NCBI GenBank assembly: GCA_945861535.1 | Contig: CAMAUZ010000043.1 | Location: 1-63,368, forward strand | Direction of reading: 5' to 3' | Source of the DNA: Akkermansia muciniphila | GTDB lineage: Bacteria; Verrucomicrobiota; Verrucomicrobiia; Limisphaerales; BJHT01 | Length of the DNA stretch: 63,368 nucleotides | Shown: positions 2,552 through 61,839 of the stretch, one piece after another | How the letters are laid out: every line of letters begins with the position of its first letter | Position numbering within the stretch: position 1 is the first letter of the stretch | Notes under the pieces: model-generated | Database searches by the model: none | What the model was told of the DNA's origin: nothing | What the model saw: the letters and a program-made list of their open reading frames with translations, nothing else | Translations under genes and position numbers: made by a program

Positions 2552-4645
2552 ATGACAGCCCTGCGATTCCGCCCACTGCCCCTGGCCAACTTGCTTCTCG
2601 CCCTGCTCACACATTCCACCCTGCTGGCGGCGGAATGGCCGGCGCTTCCGGCCAAGGATGCGGCGGCGGAGATTCCCGCACAGGAGTGGCCGCAACGACC
2701 CGGACCGCGGCGCGTGCGGGTGCTGGTGCATTATCCCGGCGGTTCGCTGGATGGCGTGAATGCGGCGACTGGCGTCATGCTCACGCTGCACAATTGGGGC
2801 GGCAGCGATTGCGTGGGCACGGCCGATCCGCGGGCGCTGGCGCAGCGGTTGAACGTTGTCGCGGTCTGCGTGAACTACCTCCAGAGCGGCAAGGCGGATT
2901 CGATTGATGCGCCGGAGCCGTATGACTTCGGCTACCTGCAGGCGCTCGATGCATTGCGCGCCTTGTGGTGGGTGCGCGACCGGCTCGCCGCGATGGACCG
3001 GCCGTTTGCCGACGACCGGATTTTTTGCACGGGCGGATCGGGCGGCGGCAATGTGACCCTGATGGCCAACAAGCTCGCGCCCCGCACGTTTGCCTGCGTC
3101 GTGGACATGTGCGGGATGAAAAAGCTCTCGGATGACATCGCTTTTAATCTGCCCGGCGGCAGTTCGCTCAATGCCCGCTGGAGCCGCGACCCGCGCAGCC
3201 GGAACTATCTCACCGCCGACGAACAGGAGCTGCGATTTCTCGGACATTCCGCCCATCTCGCCACCATGAAACAGCTCGGGGCGACCGCCAAAGTGGTCGT
3301 GATTCACGGGGCCGAGGACACGGTCTGTCCCTACGAGGACGCCGTGGAAATGGTGGAAGCGATGAAGCGCGGGGGACTCGACGTGGAGGCAAAGTTCATC
3401 ACCAAGGCCGACGTGGACGGCAAGGTTCACAAGACCGCCGGCCACTTCTTTGGCACCACAGACATCGTGCTGGCGGCGGCGGAGAAGTATCTCGGCCTTG
3501 CGGGCGCCGATTCACGCCGCCGAGTCGGGGCCACGGATTTCGAGCGGGCTGAGCCGATCCGGTATCGCACGCCGAACGGCGAGTTCGTGATTTCGTATGC
3601 GGCCGGTTTCCCGGTCGGGTCATTCGAGCCGGGGCCCTGGGGCCGCTGTCTGGATCGTTCGCAGCTCCGCGAGTTCGAGGACGCGAGCGGACTGCCGCGG
3701 CCGGTGAAGACCAAGGCCGATTGGGCGGAGCGGGTCGCGCAGATTCGCGCCGGGATGCAGCAGGCCATGGGGCCATTGCCCGAGGCCGCGCGCCGGGTGC
3801 CGCTCGCCGTCGAGACCGTGTTCGAGGAGTGCATGGAGAAATACCGACGACGCAAGGTGCGGTTCACACCCGAGACCGGGGACCGCGTGCCGGCGTGGCT
3901 GCTCATTCCCGATACCCTGGCGGACGGCGGCAAGGCTCCGGGCATGCTCTGTCTCCACCAGACCACCGGCATTGGTAAAAACGAGCCGGCGGGCCTCGGC
4001 GGCTTGCCGTCGCTGCACTACGCGCATGAACTGGCCGAGCGCGGCTACGTTTGCCTCGTGCCGGATTATCCGTCCTTCGGCGAGTATCCCTATGACTTCA
4101 AGAAGCAGGGTGCGCATTACGGCAGCGGATCCATGAAGGCGATCTGGAATAATATTCGCGCGGTCGATCTGCTCGAATCGCTGCCCGAGGTGGACCCGCG
4201 CCGCCTCGGCGTCATCGGTCATTCCCTCGGCGGACACAACTCGCTGTTCACCGCCGTGTTCGACGAGCGGCTCAAGGCGGTCGTGTCGAGCTGCGGCTTC
4301 ACGCCGTTCCACGACTACTACGGCGGCCGCGTCGCCGGCTGGACGAGTGACCGCTACATGCCGCGGATTCGGGATGTGTTCGGGAACAACGCGGACCATC
4401 TGCCGTTTGATTTCTACGAAATACTCGGTGCCCTCGCGCCGCGCGGTTTCTTTTCCAACTCACCAGCGAGGGATAGCAACTTTGACATTGGTGGCGTGCG
4501 CAAGGCGTTTGCGAAGGCCGCGGAAGTCTATGCGCTGTTCGACGCGCCGGGGCGGTTGCGCCTCGGCACTCCCAATGCGCCGCACGATTTCCCCGAGGCT
4601 GAGCGGATGGCCGCCTACGACTGGCTGGCGGAGATGCTGAAGTAA
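2552..4645 (+). CDS. Secreted protein with two alpha/beta-hydrolase domains
   Basis: ATG 2552 is preferred because it begins a clean export leader (MTALRFRPLPLANLLLALLTHSTLLAA) in a 697-residue protein; the frame is open further upstream without a leader. The first half (about residues 50-310) is an esterase/prolyl-oligopeptidase-like fold, with a GGSGGGN elbow near residue 170 and VVIHGAEDTVCPYED near 250. The second half (about 370-697) resembles the dienelactone hydrolase/acetyl-xylan esterase group, with GMLCLHQTTGIGK, the GHSLGGHNS elbow near 555 and a final NAPHDFPEAER carrying a likely catalytic His. Each domain has its own nucleophile motif. It is probably periplasmic or extracellular; a polysaccharide-ester substrate is a guess. 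Confidence 0.8.
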   Translation: MTALRFRPLPLANLLLALLTHSTLLAAEWPALPAKDAAAEIPAQEWPQRPGPRRVRVLVHYPGGSLDGVNAATGVMLTLHNWGGSDCVGTADPRALAQRLNVVAVCVNYLQSGKADSIDAPEPYDFGYLQALDALRALWWVRDRLAAMDRPFADDRIFCTGGSGGGNVTLMANKLAPRTFACVVDMCGMKKLSDDIAFNLPGGSSLNARWSRDPRSRNYLTADEQELRFLGHSAHLATMKQLGATAKVVVIHGAEDTVCPYEDAVEMVEAMKRGGLDVEAKFITKADVDGKVHKTAGHFFGTTDIVLAAAEKYLGLAGADSRRRVGATDFERAEPIRYRTPNGEFVISYAAGFPVGSFEPGPWGRCLDRSQLREFEDASGLPRPVKTKADWAERVAQIRAGMQQAMGPLPEAARRVPLAVETVFEECMEKYRRRKVRFTPETGDRVPAWLLIPDTLADGGKAPGMLCLHQTTGIGKNEPAGLGGLPSLHYAHELAERGYVCLVPDYPSFGEYPYDFKKQGAHYGSGSMKAIWNNIRAVDLLESLPEVDPRRLGVIGHSLGGHNSLFTAVFDERLKAVVSSCGFTPFHDYYGGRVAGWTSDRYMPRIRDVFGNNADHLPFDFYEILGALAPRGFFSNSPARDSNFDIGGVRKAFAKAAEVYALFDAPGRLRLGTPNAPHDFPEAERMAAYDWLAEMLK

Positions 4646-4776
4646 GCAATCGCTCTTCAGTCGAGGCGATGGAGATGGGGCGGCGGAGCAACTCCGACGG
4701 AGCGCGGCGGTAGTCAACCAGCCCAGCTCGACTGGATTAGTTACAGCCCGGACTCGGCAAACGATGGCCTGCCGGG

Positions 4777-15324: not shown

Positions 15325-15474
15325 GGTGGAGCGCGGGCGGTCCCCGCCCGCAGCGCACACACAGGGCGAGAGCGGTTCGGGTTTTCCAGCGCTCCTCTTC
15401 CTTCGGCCGCGCTGCGACCGGGGACCGGTCGCGCTCCCCTTTCAGAGCGGCGCGGCGCTCAGCCGCTCCCCCGC
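15325..15474. repeat. Composite GC-rich palindromic element (TCCC-centred class)
   Basis: GGAGCGCGGGCGGTCCCCGC is found near 15328-15347, and a second palindrome GCGACCGGGGACCGGTCGC near 15414-15432. The first repeats the unit at 2257. The element fills the gap between pyrE and the convergent lolD stop codon at 15475. Confidence 0.7.
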
Positions 15475-19319: not shown

Positions 19320-20010
19320 GCGGAAATTGATGAACCACGGAGACACGATGAATCCAGAGCGGCGAAGCCGCACCCCAAGCGGAACGCGACCGGTTCCCGG
19401 TCGCAGCGGCAACAGCGGAGCCGGGGCGCCTGGAGTTTCTTGCGCCTTCGCAGGTGCGGACCCGCTGCGGGCGGGGACCGCCCGCGCGCCAGAATCCTCG
19501 CGCCGCGCGAGGGGATTGCCGTCGTGCCGCCAATCCTCCGACCACCAGAGAATTGCTTCCGCTGCCCGGCTCTTCGTCCCGGAGGGACCCCGCAGGAAAT
19601 TAGCCGGGGGCAAGCCAGCGCAGCGGGCGCAGCCCCCGGATGGGCCGCCAAACGGGCCATGCCCCAGCGGGGCATCGGAGAAATCTTTGGCGGCGGCGTC
19701 CCCGCAGCATTCCCGCCACCGCTCGTCGCCTCGGGCCATTTTCTTCGATACCCCGTTGGGGCACGGAGCCACGCGACACCGTATCCGGGGGCCGCGTCCG
19801 CTGGGGCGGACTTGCCCCCGGCTAATCTCCGCCGGCGTCCCTCCGGGACGGGAGCGCGGGAATCCTCGCCCGCAGCGGGTCCGCAGGCCGGAGGTCTCTA
19901 GGATATTCCGCCGCTTTGGTGCCGCACTGTGCGATGCGACCGGGGACCGGTCGCGCTCCGCTTCGGCTGCGGCTCCGCCACTCAGTGTTCCTCGTGTCTC
20001 TGTGGTTCCA
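19320..20010. repeat. ~690-bp composite palindromic element with inverted ends
   Basis: The left end reads GAACCACGGAGACACGATGA near 19330-19349, and the right end reads CTCGTGTCTCTGTGGTTCC near 19990-20008, its reverse complement. Both sides carry GCGACCGG...CCGGTCGC palindromes just inside (19385 and 19938). The interior holds many smaller palindromes around TCCC or GGGA, including CCCGCTGCGGGCGGGGACCG near 19459 and CTAATTTCC/CCCGGCTAAT-type blocks. No gene is supported. It separates the MFS gene from the DUF2064 gene. Confidence 0.75.
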
Positions 20011-26948: not shown

Positions 26949-27077
26949 GTGGGGCAGGCATCCTTGCCTGCCGGTTCACGGGGCATCCCTGCCCCGTGTT
27001 CCCGGCCCTGCCGCGCCGCCGCGGGGAACGGGCGGCAAGGATGCCGCCCGAACCGTCAGGCTGGAAACCTGCCCCAC
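26949..27077. repeat. Composite palindromic element (ATCC/GGAT-centred), ends GTGGGGCAGG...CCTGCCCCAC
   Basis: The first half holds GCAGGCATCCTTGCCTGC and ACGGGGCATCCCTGCCCCGT. The second half holds GGCGGCAAGGATGCCGCC and a CAGGCTGGAAACCTG unit. Outer ends are inverted repeats. The first-half palindromes have TCC in the centre and the second-half ones GGA, so the element is an inverted repeat of palindromes. It lies between the PRC-barrel terminator and the aroF stop codon. Confidence 0.8.
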
Positions 27078-28314: not shown

Positions 28315-28470
28315 GTAGCGTAGACTTCCAAGTCTGCTGTATCGCGGGTTTCCAAACCCGCTGGCCGTCCGGTCACCGGCAGGCTTCGGGGTTTTCGCAC
28401 GCGCCCGACCGCGCGCAGCCCCTGCCGATTTGGAAATCGGCGACACAGCAGGTTAGGAAACCTGCGCTAC
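28315..28470. repeat. Composite palindromic element bounded by GTAGCG...CGCTAC
   Basis: The first half contains AGACTTCCAAGTCT and GCGGGTTTCCAAACCCGC; the second half contains GCCGATTTGGAAATCGGC and CAGGTTAGGAAACCTG. Each small palindrome has TTCC or GGAA in its centre with different arms. The outer ends GTAGCG and CGCTAC are inverted. It fills the gap between aroF and the next plus-strand gene and encodes nothing recognisable. Confidence 0.85.
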
Positions 28471-32815: not shown

Positions 32816-33922
32816 ATGAAACAGAAGAAAATCCAGGCGTATGCGCTGGTCCGACGCCCGGTGCCGCGGGTGCGGTCGTCCGGGAGCCGCCACACCCGCG
32901 CGTTTCGTGAGGTGGTGGCGATGATCGAGGCCGCCCGGGCGCAGGCTTTTCAAGCCGTCAACACCGGGATGGTCGATCTCTATTGGCGCGTGGGGGAATA
33001 CATCGGCCGGAAGATTGTCGCCGACGGGTGGGGCAAAAACACGGTCCGGGAATTGTCCGCGTTCATTCGCGCCCGGCGGCCGGGGCGCGGCGGATTCTCG
33101 GCCTCGAACCTGTGGCGGATGCGGCAGTTTCACGAGCTGTACTCGGGGCAGCCAAAACTCGCACCACTGGTGCGAGTTTTGTCCTGGACGCATAATCTCC
33201 TCATCATGGGCGGATGCAAACCCCCCGAGGCGCGGGAGTTTTACGTGCGCATCGCCGCGCAGGAACGCTGGGGCAAACGCGAACTGGAACGCCAGATCGC
33301 CGGCGCCCTGTTCGAGCGCACGGTGCTCGCCCCGCCAAAACTCGCACCAGTGGTGCGAGTACTGCATCCGGCGGCGGACACCGTTTTCAAAGACACTTAC
33401 ATGTTGGATTTTCTCGACCTGCCGCCGGTCCATTCGGAGGCCGATCTCCAGCACGCGCTCGTGGCCAATCTCAAACGCTTTCTCATCGAGCTGGGCCGCG
33501 ATTTCGCCTTCGTGGGCGAGCAATATCTCCTGCAGGTCGGGGGCACGGACTTCCGCCTCGACCTGCTGTTCTACCATCGCAGCCTCCAGTGCCTGGTCGC
33601 TTTTGATCTCAAGATCAATCACTTCGAACCCGAGCATCTCGGCAAGATGGAGTTCTACCTTGAAGCCCTCGACCGCGACGTGAAGAAGCCCCACGAGCGT
33701 CCCTCCATCGGCGTCCTGCTCTGCGCCACCAAGGATGATGAAGTGGTGGAGTATGCCCTGAGCCGTTCGCTTTCCCCCGCCCTCATCGCTGAATACCAGA
33801 CGGCGCTGCCGGACCGGCGTCTCCTCCAACGCAAGCTCCACGAACTCTATCAACTTTCATTGCCTGCGGACGGTGTGCCGCCGTCGCAGTCACGTCCAGC
33901 GCGCAAGGCACGCAAGGCATGA
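32816..33922 (+). CDS. PDDEXK nuclease family protein YhcG (DUF1016)
   Basis: This 368-residue protein has the N-terminal DUF1016 helical domain (FQAVNTGMVDLYWRVGEYIGRKI, NLWRMRQFHELYS, LSWTHNLLIM) and the C-terminal nuclease domain. The latter has VGGTDFRLDLLFYHRSLQCLVAFDLK, containing the D...D-x-K type PDDEXK residues, and LGKMEFYLEALDRD. Family members are associated with defence islands and restriction systems, but the biochemical role is unclear. It sits between exosortase and epsI, which are normally adjacent, and is flanked by a 17-base direct repeat. Two copies of a 29-base palindrome lie inside the frame. Confidence 0.85.
   Translation: MKQKKIQAYALVRRPVPRVRSSGSRHTRAFREVVAMIEAARAQAFQAVNTGMVDLYWRVGEYIGRKIVADGWGKNTVRELSAFIRARRPGRGGFSASNLWRMRQFHELYSGQPKLAPLVRVLSWTHNLLIMGGCKPPEAREFYVRIAAQERWGKRELERQIAGALFERTVLAPPKLAPVVRVLHPAADTVFKDTYMLDFLDLPPVHSEADLQHALVANLKRFLIELGRDFAFVGEQYLLQVGGTDFRLDLLFYHRSLQCLVAFDLKINHFEPEHLGKMEFYLEALDRDVKKPHERPSIGVLLCATKDDEVVEYALSRSLSPALIAEYQTALPDRRLLQRKLHELYQLSLPADGVPPSQSRPARKARKA
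33153..33181. repeat. 29-bp palindrome inside the DUF1016 gene, copy 1
   Basis: CAAAACTCGCACCA and TGGTGCGAGTTTTG pair perfectly around a single C. The element encodes PKLAPLVRVL in frame, at the conserved segment preceding WTHNLLI. Confidence 0.85.
33336..33364. repeat. 29-bp palindrome inside the DUF1016 gene, copy 2
   Basis: CAAAACTCGCACCA and TGGTGCGAGT pair around a single G, with the last bases of the right arm diverged (ACTG). It encodes PKLAPVVRVL, almost the same peptide as copy 1, in the same reading frame 183 bases later. Confidence 0.8.
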
Positions 33923-49049: not shown

Positions 49050-49152
49050 GTAGCGGAAGCGTCCTCGCCTGCGAGTTCGGGCGGCGTCTCGCCGCCCGTA
49101 CCGACTCGGGGCGAGACGCCCCGAGAACTCACAGGCGAGACGCCTGCGGTAC
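49050..49152. repeat. Composite palindromic element, TCTC/GAGA-centred, GTAGCG...GCGGTAC ends
   Basis: GGGCGGCGTCTCGCCGCCC lies at the centre of the first half. GGGGCGAGACGCCCC and CAGGCGAGACGCCTG fill the second half. The first unit GAAGCGTCCTCGCCTGC is less symmetric. The palindrome centres change from TCTC/TCCT in the first half to GAGA in the second, as in the elements at 26.95 and 28.3 kb. Confidence 0.8.
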
Positions 49153-53809: not shown

Positions 53810-54079
53810 CCCGTCGCCGGGCAGCAGTTCGAGTACCGCTTCGATGACATCGGCAACCGCCAATCCGCCGCGCCTGTGGGGCAGGCTTCCAGCCTGCCAG
53901 TTCGGACAGCATCCCTGTCGCACACCGGCCGAGCCGACCTCCGCGGCGAAAACGACACCGCCAACGATCTCAACCAAAACACCCAGCGCACCGTCCCGGC
54001 TTCGCCGAGGTGCAAGGGAGTGGGGTTGGAGTTCCGCGTTTACGGGGCCCGTTGCTCACACGCCGCCCGAACCGCGTAA
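53810..54079 (+). pseudogene. RHS-repeat protein fragment interrupted by a palindromic element
   Basis: The frame at 53819 begins GQQFEYRFDDIGNRQSA, an RHS/YD-repeat signature (YxFDxIGNR). Further on, ANDLNQNTQRTVPA resembles the N-x-LNQYTxRTVPG repeat end. Between them lies GQASSLPVRTASLSHTG, encoded by a GTGGGGCAGG palindromic half-element (53876-53921). The frame stops at 54079 without the rest of an RHS protein; sequence to ~54150 (NKLYGRARSDATVNF in another frame) may be more debris. The fragment is not functional. Confidence 0.55.
53876..53921. repeat. Half of a GTGGGGCAGG palindromic element, inside the RHS remnant
   Basis: GCAGGCTTCCAGCCTGC and GACAGCATCCCTGTC are two small palindromes with TTCC and ATCC centres, as in the first half of the 26.95 kb element. 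No matching second half is found nearby, so this is an incomplete copy. Confidence 0.7.
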
Positions 54080-61758: not shown

Positions 61759-61839
61759 GTAGCTCGACATTCCAATGTCGAGATTTTTTCCCATGGCGCG
61801 CCCCGTCATTCCGAACTCAACAATGGAATGTCGAGCTAC
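61759..61839. repeat. GTAGC...GCTAC palindromic element, TTCC-centred
   Basis: CTCGACATTCCAATGTCGAG (61763-61782) is a 20-base palindrome with TTCC in the centre, preceded by GTAG. The right part TGGAATGTCGAGCTAC is the inverted arm, ending GCTAC. It is the smallest copy of the GTAGC-bounded class and lies between wbpE-like and wbpA-like genes. Confidence 0.85.

Follow-up and report, generated by a model that had tools for sequence, protein, structure and literature searches.

A probable RAYT-mobilised REPIN with two hairpins at each end in a verrucomicrobial genome, and indications that its stem words may be replaced in place

Positions 28315-28470 of the DNA analysed here, a stretch of 63,368 nucleotides from an assembly of Akkermansia muciniphila (the window), hold a series of palindromes whose arms differ from one to the next while their centres stay the same. 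The locus raises two questions, namely what kind of element this is and how its arms can come to differ and still pair. REP, BIME and REPIN elements are associated with RAYT (Y1/HUH) nucleases, and REP transposases are thought to spread them through bacterial genomes. A preliminary description of the window had proposed a class of composite elements at five sites and knew of no established name for it; anatomy and linkage to RAYT genes, set out below, give it one, that of the REP/BIME/REPIN elements. We conclude that the element is probably a non-autonomous, RAYT-mobilised REPIN with two hairpins per end, whose stem words may occasionally be replaced by copying.

The element is a unit of four hairpins ordered > > < <, with GTAGC and GCTAC as its outer limits (Table 1), and its ends form 50-nt arms that are 76% complementary. 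The bounds and the ordered palindromes of the preliminary description are thereby recovered. The differing arms and the TTCC and then GGAA centres are present as well, but the switch of centre is a matter of inverted orientation and the arm variety one of stem words proper to the slots of a family. This copy is imperfect, with a T-G mismatch in HP1 and TTAGGAAA as HP4, and at both places the canonical bases stand in the congener, a syntenic genome from the same genus whose DNA is about 90% identical. The orthologous copy in the congener (L305) shows one-sided differences only, and the element is kept between two genes in both species; a DAHP synthase gene is next to it. An Rfam search of the window gave no match above gathering score.

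Table 1. Hairpin elements of the window and their parts (HP1 to HP4, hairpins in order).
Element	Position	Strand	Parts
Family A element, complete	28315..28470	.	GTAGC, HP1 28320-28337, TGTATC, HP2 28344-28361, spacer, HP3 28424-28441, GACACA, HP4 28448-28465, GCTAC
Family B element	26949..27077	.	GTGGG tag, HP1 26953-26972, HP2 26977-26998, HP3 27029-27050, imperfect HP4 ~27055-27073, CCCAC
Family C element	49050..49152	.	Degenerate HP1, HP2 49078-49098, HP3 49105-49125, HP4 ~49132-49146, GTAC end
Half of family B element	53876..53921	.	HP1 53880-53898 and degenerate HP2
Family D element	61759..61839	.	GTAGC, HP1 61763-61782, spacer, imperfect inverted copy, GCTAC

In a 1.66-Mb sample of the genome that contains the window (the source genome; the window and 80 stretches of 20 kb, together 21% of 7.94 Mb), hairpins of the TCC or GGA type formed 268 clusters, 28 of which were clean > > < < units. 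Sorted by tag, linker and centre, the units fall into families, and the five sites that had been grouped by a shared layout represent at least four of these: A at 28315, B at 26949 with the half copy at 53876, C at 49050 and D at 61759. The layout is indeed common to related families, since A, B and C all read tag-hairpin-hairpin-spacer-hairpin-hairpin-tag, but the sites are not one class, and family D has one hairpin per end. Family A combines GTAGC, a GCAG.. stem, TGTRTC, a GC[G/C]G.. stem and the centre TTCC; family B has GTGGG, a GGCAGGC or GTCAGGC stem, an AGTT-like linker, GCGG and GGGG stems, and GCATCC or CTTCC as centre; family C has GTAC or GTAG, a GCAGGC stem, AGTT, GCGG and GGGG stems, and the centre GCGTC; and family D, at 61759, has GTAGC and a single hairpin at each end, with ATTCCAAT. 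A tetranucleotide of the REP type is present 5' of the palindrome in all four (GTAG in A and D, GTGG in B, GTAG or GTAC in C).

The stem words of family A are few and specific to their slots, mainly GCAGGT, GCAGAC or GCAGGC in HP1 and HP4 and mainly GCGGGT, GCCGAT or GCCGAC in HP2 and HP3. Because these words recur across copies, most of the arm variety within one element is a property of the family, and the earlier picture of arms rewritten between copies of a single element gives way to one of differing families. Free hypervariability of the arms was rejected, as 39 HP1 sites of the source genome comprise 13 distinct 18-mers, with matched variation at pairs 5 and 6. A constant centre with variable arms was likewise rejected as a general rule, the loci matched in the order-wide covariance-model search (below) mostly keeping the stem feet and changing the tip and centre. 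HP2 differs from HP3 in 67 of 67 complete family A copies collected from the source genome and 60 of 60 from the congener, and HP1 equals HP4 in 6 of 67 and 8 of 60; independent draws predict about 21 and 17 equal inner pairs and about 24 and 20 equal outer pairs, expectations that serve as a guide only, given that copies share ancestry. The rarity of equal HP1 and HP4 argues against frequent copying between the ends of an element. Inner stems of family B were callable in 16 of 22 elements, and all 16 pair one GCGG with one GGGG. When the A and B copies of the window are folded as single-stranded DNA, they do better than shuffled sequences (z scores of -4.6 and -7.1), and their two halves pair largely with each other, so that unlike inner stems may limit the formation of one long perfect duplex.

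Further palindromes were seen in the window. A hairpin family of GCGGGCGGTCCCCGCCCGC and GCGACCGGGGACCGGTCGC occurs at 15333-15432, 19386-19485, 2261-2279 and 19936-19954; it is twice paired, about 80 bp apart, and the congener has the 15333 pair at the corresponding position (L307). Two perfect hairpins of related sequence (CTCGCACCA..TGGTGCGAG) lie at 33153-33181 and 33340-33360, about 160 bp apart, and their short core recurs at a few places in the source-genome sample. The half B element at 53876-53921 is situated inside a long open frame that had no match in Pfam; the residues preceding the element resemble an RHS/YD repeat by eye.

The palindromes first noticed at 28315-28470 are real, non-random and part of a dispersed repeat. 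Perfect hairpins with arms of at least 8 bases number 166 in 463 kb of the source genome, whereas a single first-order Markov simulation gave 51; the surplus falls mainly on centres of the TCC/GGA type. A fixed-spacing pattern, GTAGC-N7-TTCC, showed no enrichment (51 matches, 50 for the reversed control) since the spacing is not fixed. A covariance model of the 49-base family A half-element (R1) matched many copies: at least 150 half-elements above 72 bits in the source genome, at least 150 in the congener, and matches at E 1e-8 or better in 22 of 39 genomes of the order, these two included. In a phylum-wide draw with stricter filters, 3 of 288 genomes matched at 1e-12, the source genome among them. 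Sixty-seven of the 94 family A elements collected from the source genome are complete, that is, inverted doublet units. A 31-base end was found in at least 77 stretches of contigs from other genomes, and among the matches listed all are titled as Verrucomicrobiota or its subgroups, bar one bin titled only 'bacterium'.

Family B is much commoner in the source genome, with 51 tagged sites in 1.66 Mb against 2 in the 812 kb of the congener examined and none in 351 kb of unselected congener stretches. Those two tagged sites rule out its complete absence from the congener; the gap in abundance suggests recent spread or loss. The 26949 site is occupied in the congener by a different 448 bp sequence between aligned flanks. 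A scan for insertions of about 60-260 bp between the congeners, which might have exposed the target-site duplication of a DDE-transposon MITE, revealed no empty site of family A, B or C whose ends are clear. Open frames, examined as a sign of whether the elements are mainly extragenic, span 43 of 64 elements and 401 of 486 random placements, a comparison with no discriminating power in GC-rich DNA. Among 314 family A ends from the source genome and the congener, the base before the tag, which follows a C/T-rich run, is T in 64% and A in 1%; TT precedes the tag in 98 and CT in 65. From sequence, this bias is likely to represent a target or cleavage preference, and CT cleavage sites, described for RAYTs in the text of one report (PMC8266576), come near it.

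Linkage to RAYT genes is seen in other genomes. In an uncultured Verrucomicrobiales bin (L147), a 327-aa frame is bracketed by family A hairpins, with a complete unit at 3515-3669 and, at about 4433-4656, a rearranged unit into which the frame runs. Its product passes the cut-offs of both NF047646, REP_Tyr_transpos (81.3 bits, cut-off 80), and Pfam Y1_Tnp (27.9 bits, cut-off 23). The RAYTs closest to it, at L206, L255 and L266 (57-60% identity, the next at 48%), share its GTAGC-GCAG..-[CT]GT.TCGC ends, and complete four-hairpin units were read at L206 and L266. Among 58 genomes searched as relatives, the source genome included, a RAYT match at E 0.001 is present in 47, and in 26 a match exceeds the cut-off. 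We examined 74 RAYT loci, of which 62 could be placed with two seed proteins and 61 were distinct; GTAG-tagged hairpins lie within 800 bp on both sides at 18 of the 61, on one side at 9 and on neither at 34, and their density at RAYT loci is 1.05 per kb against 0.073 in the source-genome sample. At L224, L241 and L210, one tag and centre are combined with different matched stems side by side.

None of the five RAYT-like loci of the source genome is flanked by family A hairpins, so the family A parent is missing, lost or unassembled there. As drivers of family A these loci were rejected, for only one of the five, C118, is flanked by GTAG-tagged hairpins, and these are family D. The RAYT-like gene in question (G000:C118; 54.7 bits on NF047646, under the cut-off) sits between hairpins of the kind found at window position 61759. 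Also set aside as a parent was the Y1 transposase of L002, which lies close to a partial copy of family B but has inverted repeats of its own. Other Y1 transposase genes of the source genome (L001, L003, L004 and L007) stand amid short palindromes of their own, such as CAACCCC..GGGGTTG or GCCGAGCA..TGCTCGGC, and resemble the TIR-flanked 'TIRYT' genes in the text of PMC3733652.

These features can be set beside systems already described, as far as the text of each report goes. GTAG and CGTC REPs were reported in more than 80 species, with families that have alternative complementary stems, and Opitutus terrae, of the Verrucomicrobia, was named as rich in them (PMC3733652). The elements described here are like those GTAG REP families and REPtrons, including those of Opitutus terrae, in their GTAG tag, perfect stem, short loop, inverted dimers and groups, and also in having subfamilies with alternative complementary stems and RAYT linkage; they differ in the fixed four-hairpin repeating unit and slot-specific stems, where that text presents single hairpins, dimers and groups (PMC3733652). 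Families A, B and C are set apart from the families of PMC3733652 by this textual description, and one of the latter could equal A, B or C. The REPIN of Pseudomonas fluorescens SBW25 offers a second parallel, with an inverted doublet as the replicative unit, conserved ends, RAYT association and a less conserved spacer, in whose hairpin compensatory changes were noted; it has one REP per end, whereas family A has two hairpins, and matched stem differences at orthologous sites are found for family A, with none seen for the SBW25 REPIN in the text of that report (PMC3116915). For the TnpA-REP systems of Stenotrophomonas and Marinomonas, stem swaps are described as modest in effect, stem mismatches as harmful and particular loop bases as essential, and in Marinomonas a GTGG or GTAC tag moves the site of cleavage (PMC8266576). 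The combination of tag, perfect stem and specific loop is shared with our elements, and the GTGG and GTAC tags recall families B and C; the REPs in that text are single hairpins, unlike the double-hairpin ends reported here, which are known from sequence (PMC8266576).

How far the arms of family A change together was examined in half-elements selected for their tag, their linker and, loosely, their centre, whether or not the arms pair (alignment A1: 102 distinct rows, with 5 of 107 half-elements left out for length changes). Pairing holds in 96.9% of 1632 cells, compared with 88.0% after shuffling of the 3' letters; changes on both sides affect 202 cells, compared with 67; and the covariation score is 0.316, compared with 0.148 (each value reached by 0 of 500 shuffles). 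Covariation is strong, and the lack of it that would have refuted the preliminary description is not seen. Sliding the partner by 1 to 3 columns lowers the score to 0.009-0.086. Two weaker measures gave less: pairs changed on both sides number 7 against 4.5 (5 of 500 shuffles reach this, and a slide of -2 also gives 7), and further pair types 21 against 20.0 (87 of 500 reach). The most variable pairs are 5 and 6 of HP1 and 3, 5 and 6 of HP2, the rest of each stem being nearly fixed; at pair 3 of HP2, 50 rows have C-G, 36 have G-C and 9 have A-T. Tag, linker and stem foot are nearly constant, and the stems vary at few pairs, almost always matched.

The congener permits individual copies to be compared in place. 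A loose selection gave 43 candidate orthologous elements, 14 of which passed an identity filter; among their 52 hairpins 31 are identical and 5 carry a matched change (7 pairs), with 18 one-sided substitutions. A strict set of 11 elements with abutting flanks was chosen after the alignments had been seen: L326, L341, L410 and L332 were dropped (flanks not abutting, or several copies side by side), L410 having two hairpins with matched change, and L041/L119 (flank identity 82%) was added, its flank abutting. In this set 42 hairpins were compared, 2 being lost to gaps; 25 are identical, 11 have one-sided changes only, 2 changes of the centre only and 4 matched changes (6 pairs), and one-sided substitutions total 15. 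At a per-site change of 0.040, independence predicts 0.18 matched pairs, and the Poisson probability in this post hoc set is 4e-8 for six matched pairs and 4e-5 for four hairpins. With the partner slid, at most 3 pairs are changed on both sides. A scan of every hairpin along 146 kb of syntenic DNA yields weak evidence: matched pairs number 11 in 731 where independence gives 1.2, 24 of 1723 pairs in shifted controls differ on both sides in any manner, and 2 of the 8 hairpins with matched change come from one place at which the genomes hold different elements.

The two strongest matched changes are those in HP4 of L340/L428 and HP1 of L396/L102, where two pairs (four bases) differ in matched fashion and the remaining three hairpins are the same in both species; each time, the congener hairpin carries the word that its element has in the terminal hairpin of the opposite end. 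Such whole-word swaps point to copying. The linker adjoining the changed hairpin in L340/L428 is changed too, which fits an outside donor. HP2 of L041/L119 and HP1 of L353/L156 differ at one matched pair each. Of the two processes named in the preliminary description, selection on folded structure and a copying of arms, the second thus draws some support from arms that differ in matched pairs at orthologous sites, and direct jumps between common words at such sites are best explained by copying.

The first process has some support of its own, from the better conservation of hairpin halves in place: at the 11 orthologous sites these diverge at 60 of 1075 positions (5.6%), spacers at 104 of 472 (22%) and flanks at 239 of 919 (26%). 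Hairpins kept by selection for a host role, such as transcript stability, termination, or nucleoid or gyrase binding, and altered by mutation and compensating mutation, would show this gradient, and the retention of the 28315 copy between its two genes in both species would agree with it. We nevertheless regard such selection as an improbable explanation, as the 15 one-sided substitutions in the same 42 hairpins indicate that broken pairs are tolerated, the two strongest matched changes are two-pair jumps to words common in the genome, and the window matches no Rfam family. Host-function selection may add to conservation; by itself it does not explain jumps to existing words.

It is also unlikely, to a similar degree, that the matched differences reflect different copies or lineages inserted or recombined at the same spot in each species. 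In its favour, copies are numerous in both genomes, and at some sites the two genomes do carry different elements (L021/L133, family B). Against it, both the spacer and the directly adjoining flanks align closely in L340/L428 and L396/L102, and hence the same insertion is being compared. Chance palindromes arising by drift in GC-rich DNA, for which the 63.8% G+C of the window and the unenriched fixed-spacing pattern might speak, have virtually no claim left in the face of the hairpin excess over simulation, the half-elements above 72 bits and the 31-base end carried by other genomes.

The reading that we prefer, a non-autonomous REPIN mobilised by a RAYT, can be spelled out as follows. The RAYT would recognise the GTAG tag together with the loop and the foot of the stem; beyond that, a paired stem would be enough. 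Stem words could then drift apart between slots and lineages, since the tag, foot and linker stay and the stems must pair, as the RAYT would require. Variants would spread by transposition, and now and then a stem word would be replaced in place by copying, both arms at once, the donor being a different hairpin of that element or a further dispersed copy, through inverted-repeat or ectopic gene conversion. Whether REP stem words are replaced in place as units and pooled genome-wide as interchangeable words, with pairing kept and inner stems unlike, is a more tentative matter, the case for it almost, but not quite, balancing the case against. In the passages of open-licence PubMed Central literature consulted, nothing was found on a four-hairpin unit or on stem replacement at orthologous sites. 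What appears new within the known REP/BIME/REPIN kind is the pair of hairpins at each end, along with some evidence, gained in place, that arms are replaced as matched pairs.

How REP stems diversify while remaining paired is an old question, and gene conversion of REPs was posed as one in the title of a 1988 review (listed among the references of PMC3116915 and PMC6006769). If true, in-place word replacement would be gene conversion of REPs at orthologous sites. Two syntenic species with at least 150 half-copies each make one-sided decay, matched replacement and whole-word swaps readable site by site. The double-hairpin end with its fixed slot words is a testable design for RAYT biochemistry, which could ask which hairpin is cut and whether unlike inner stems prevent one long perfect duplex between the ends.
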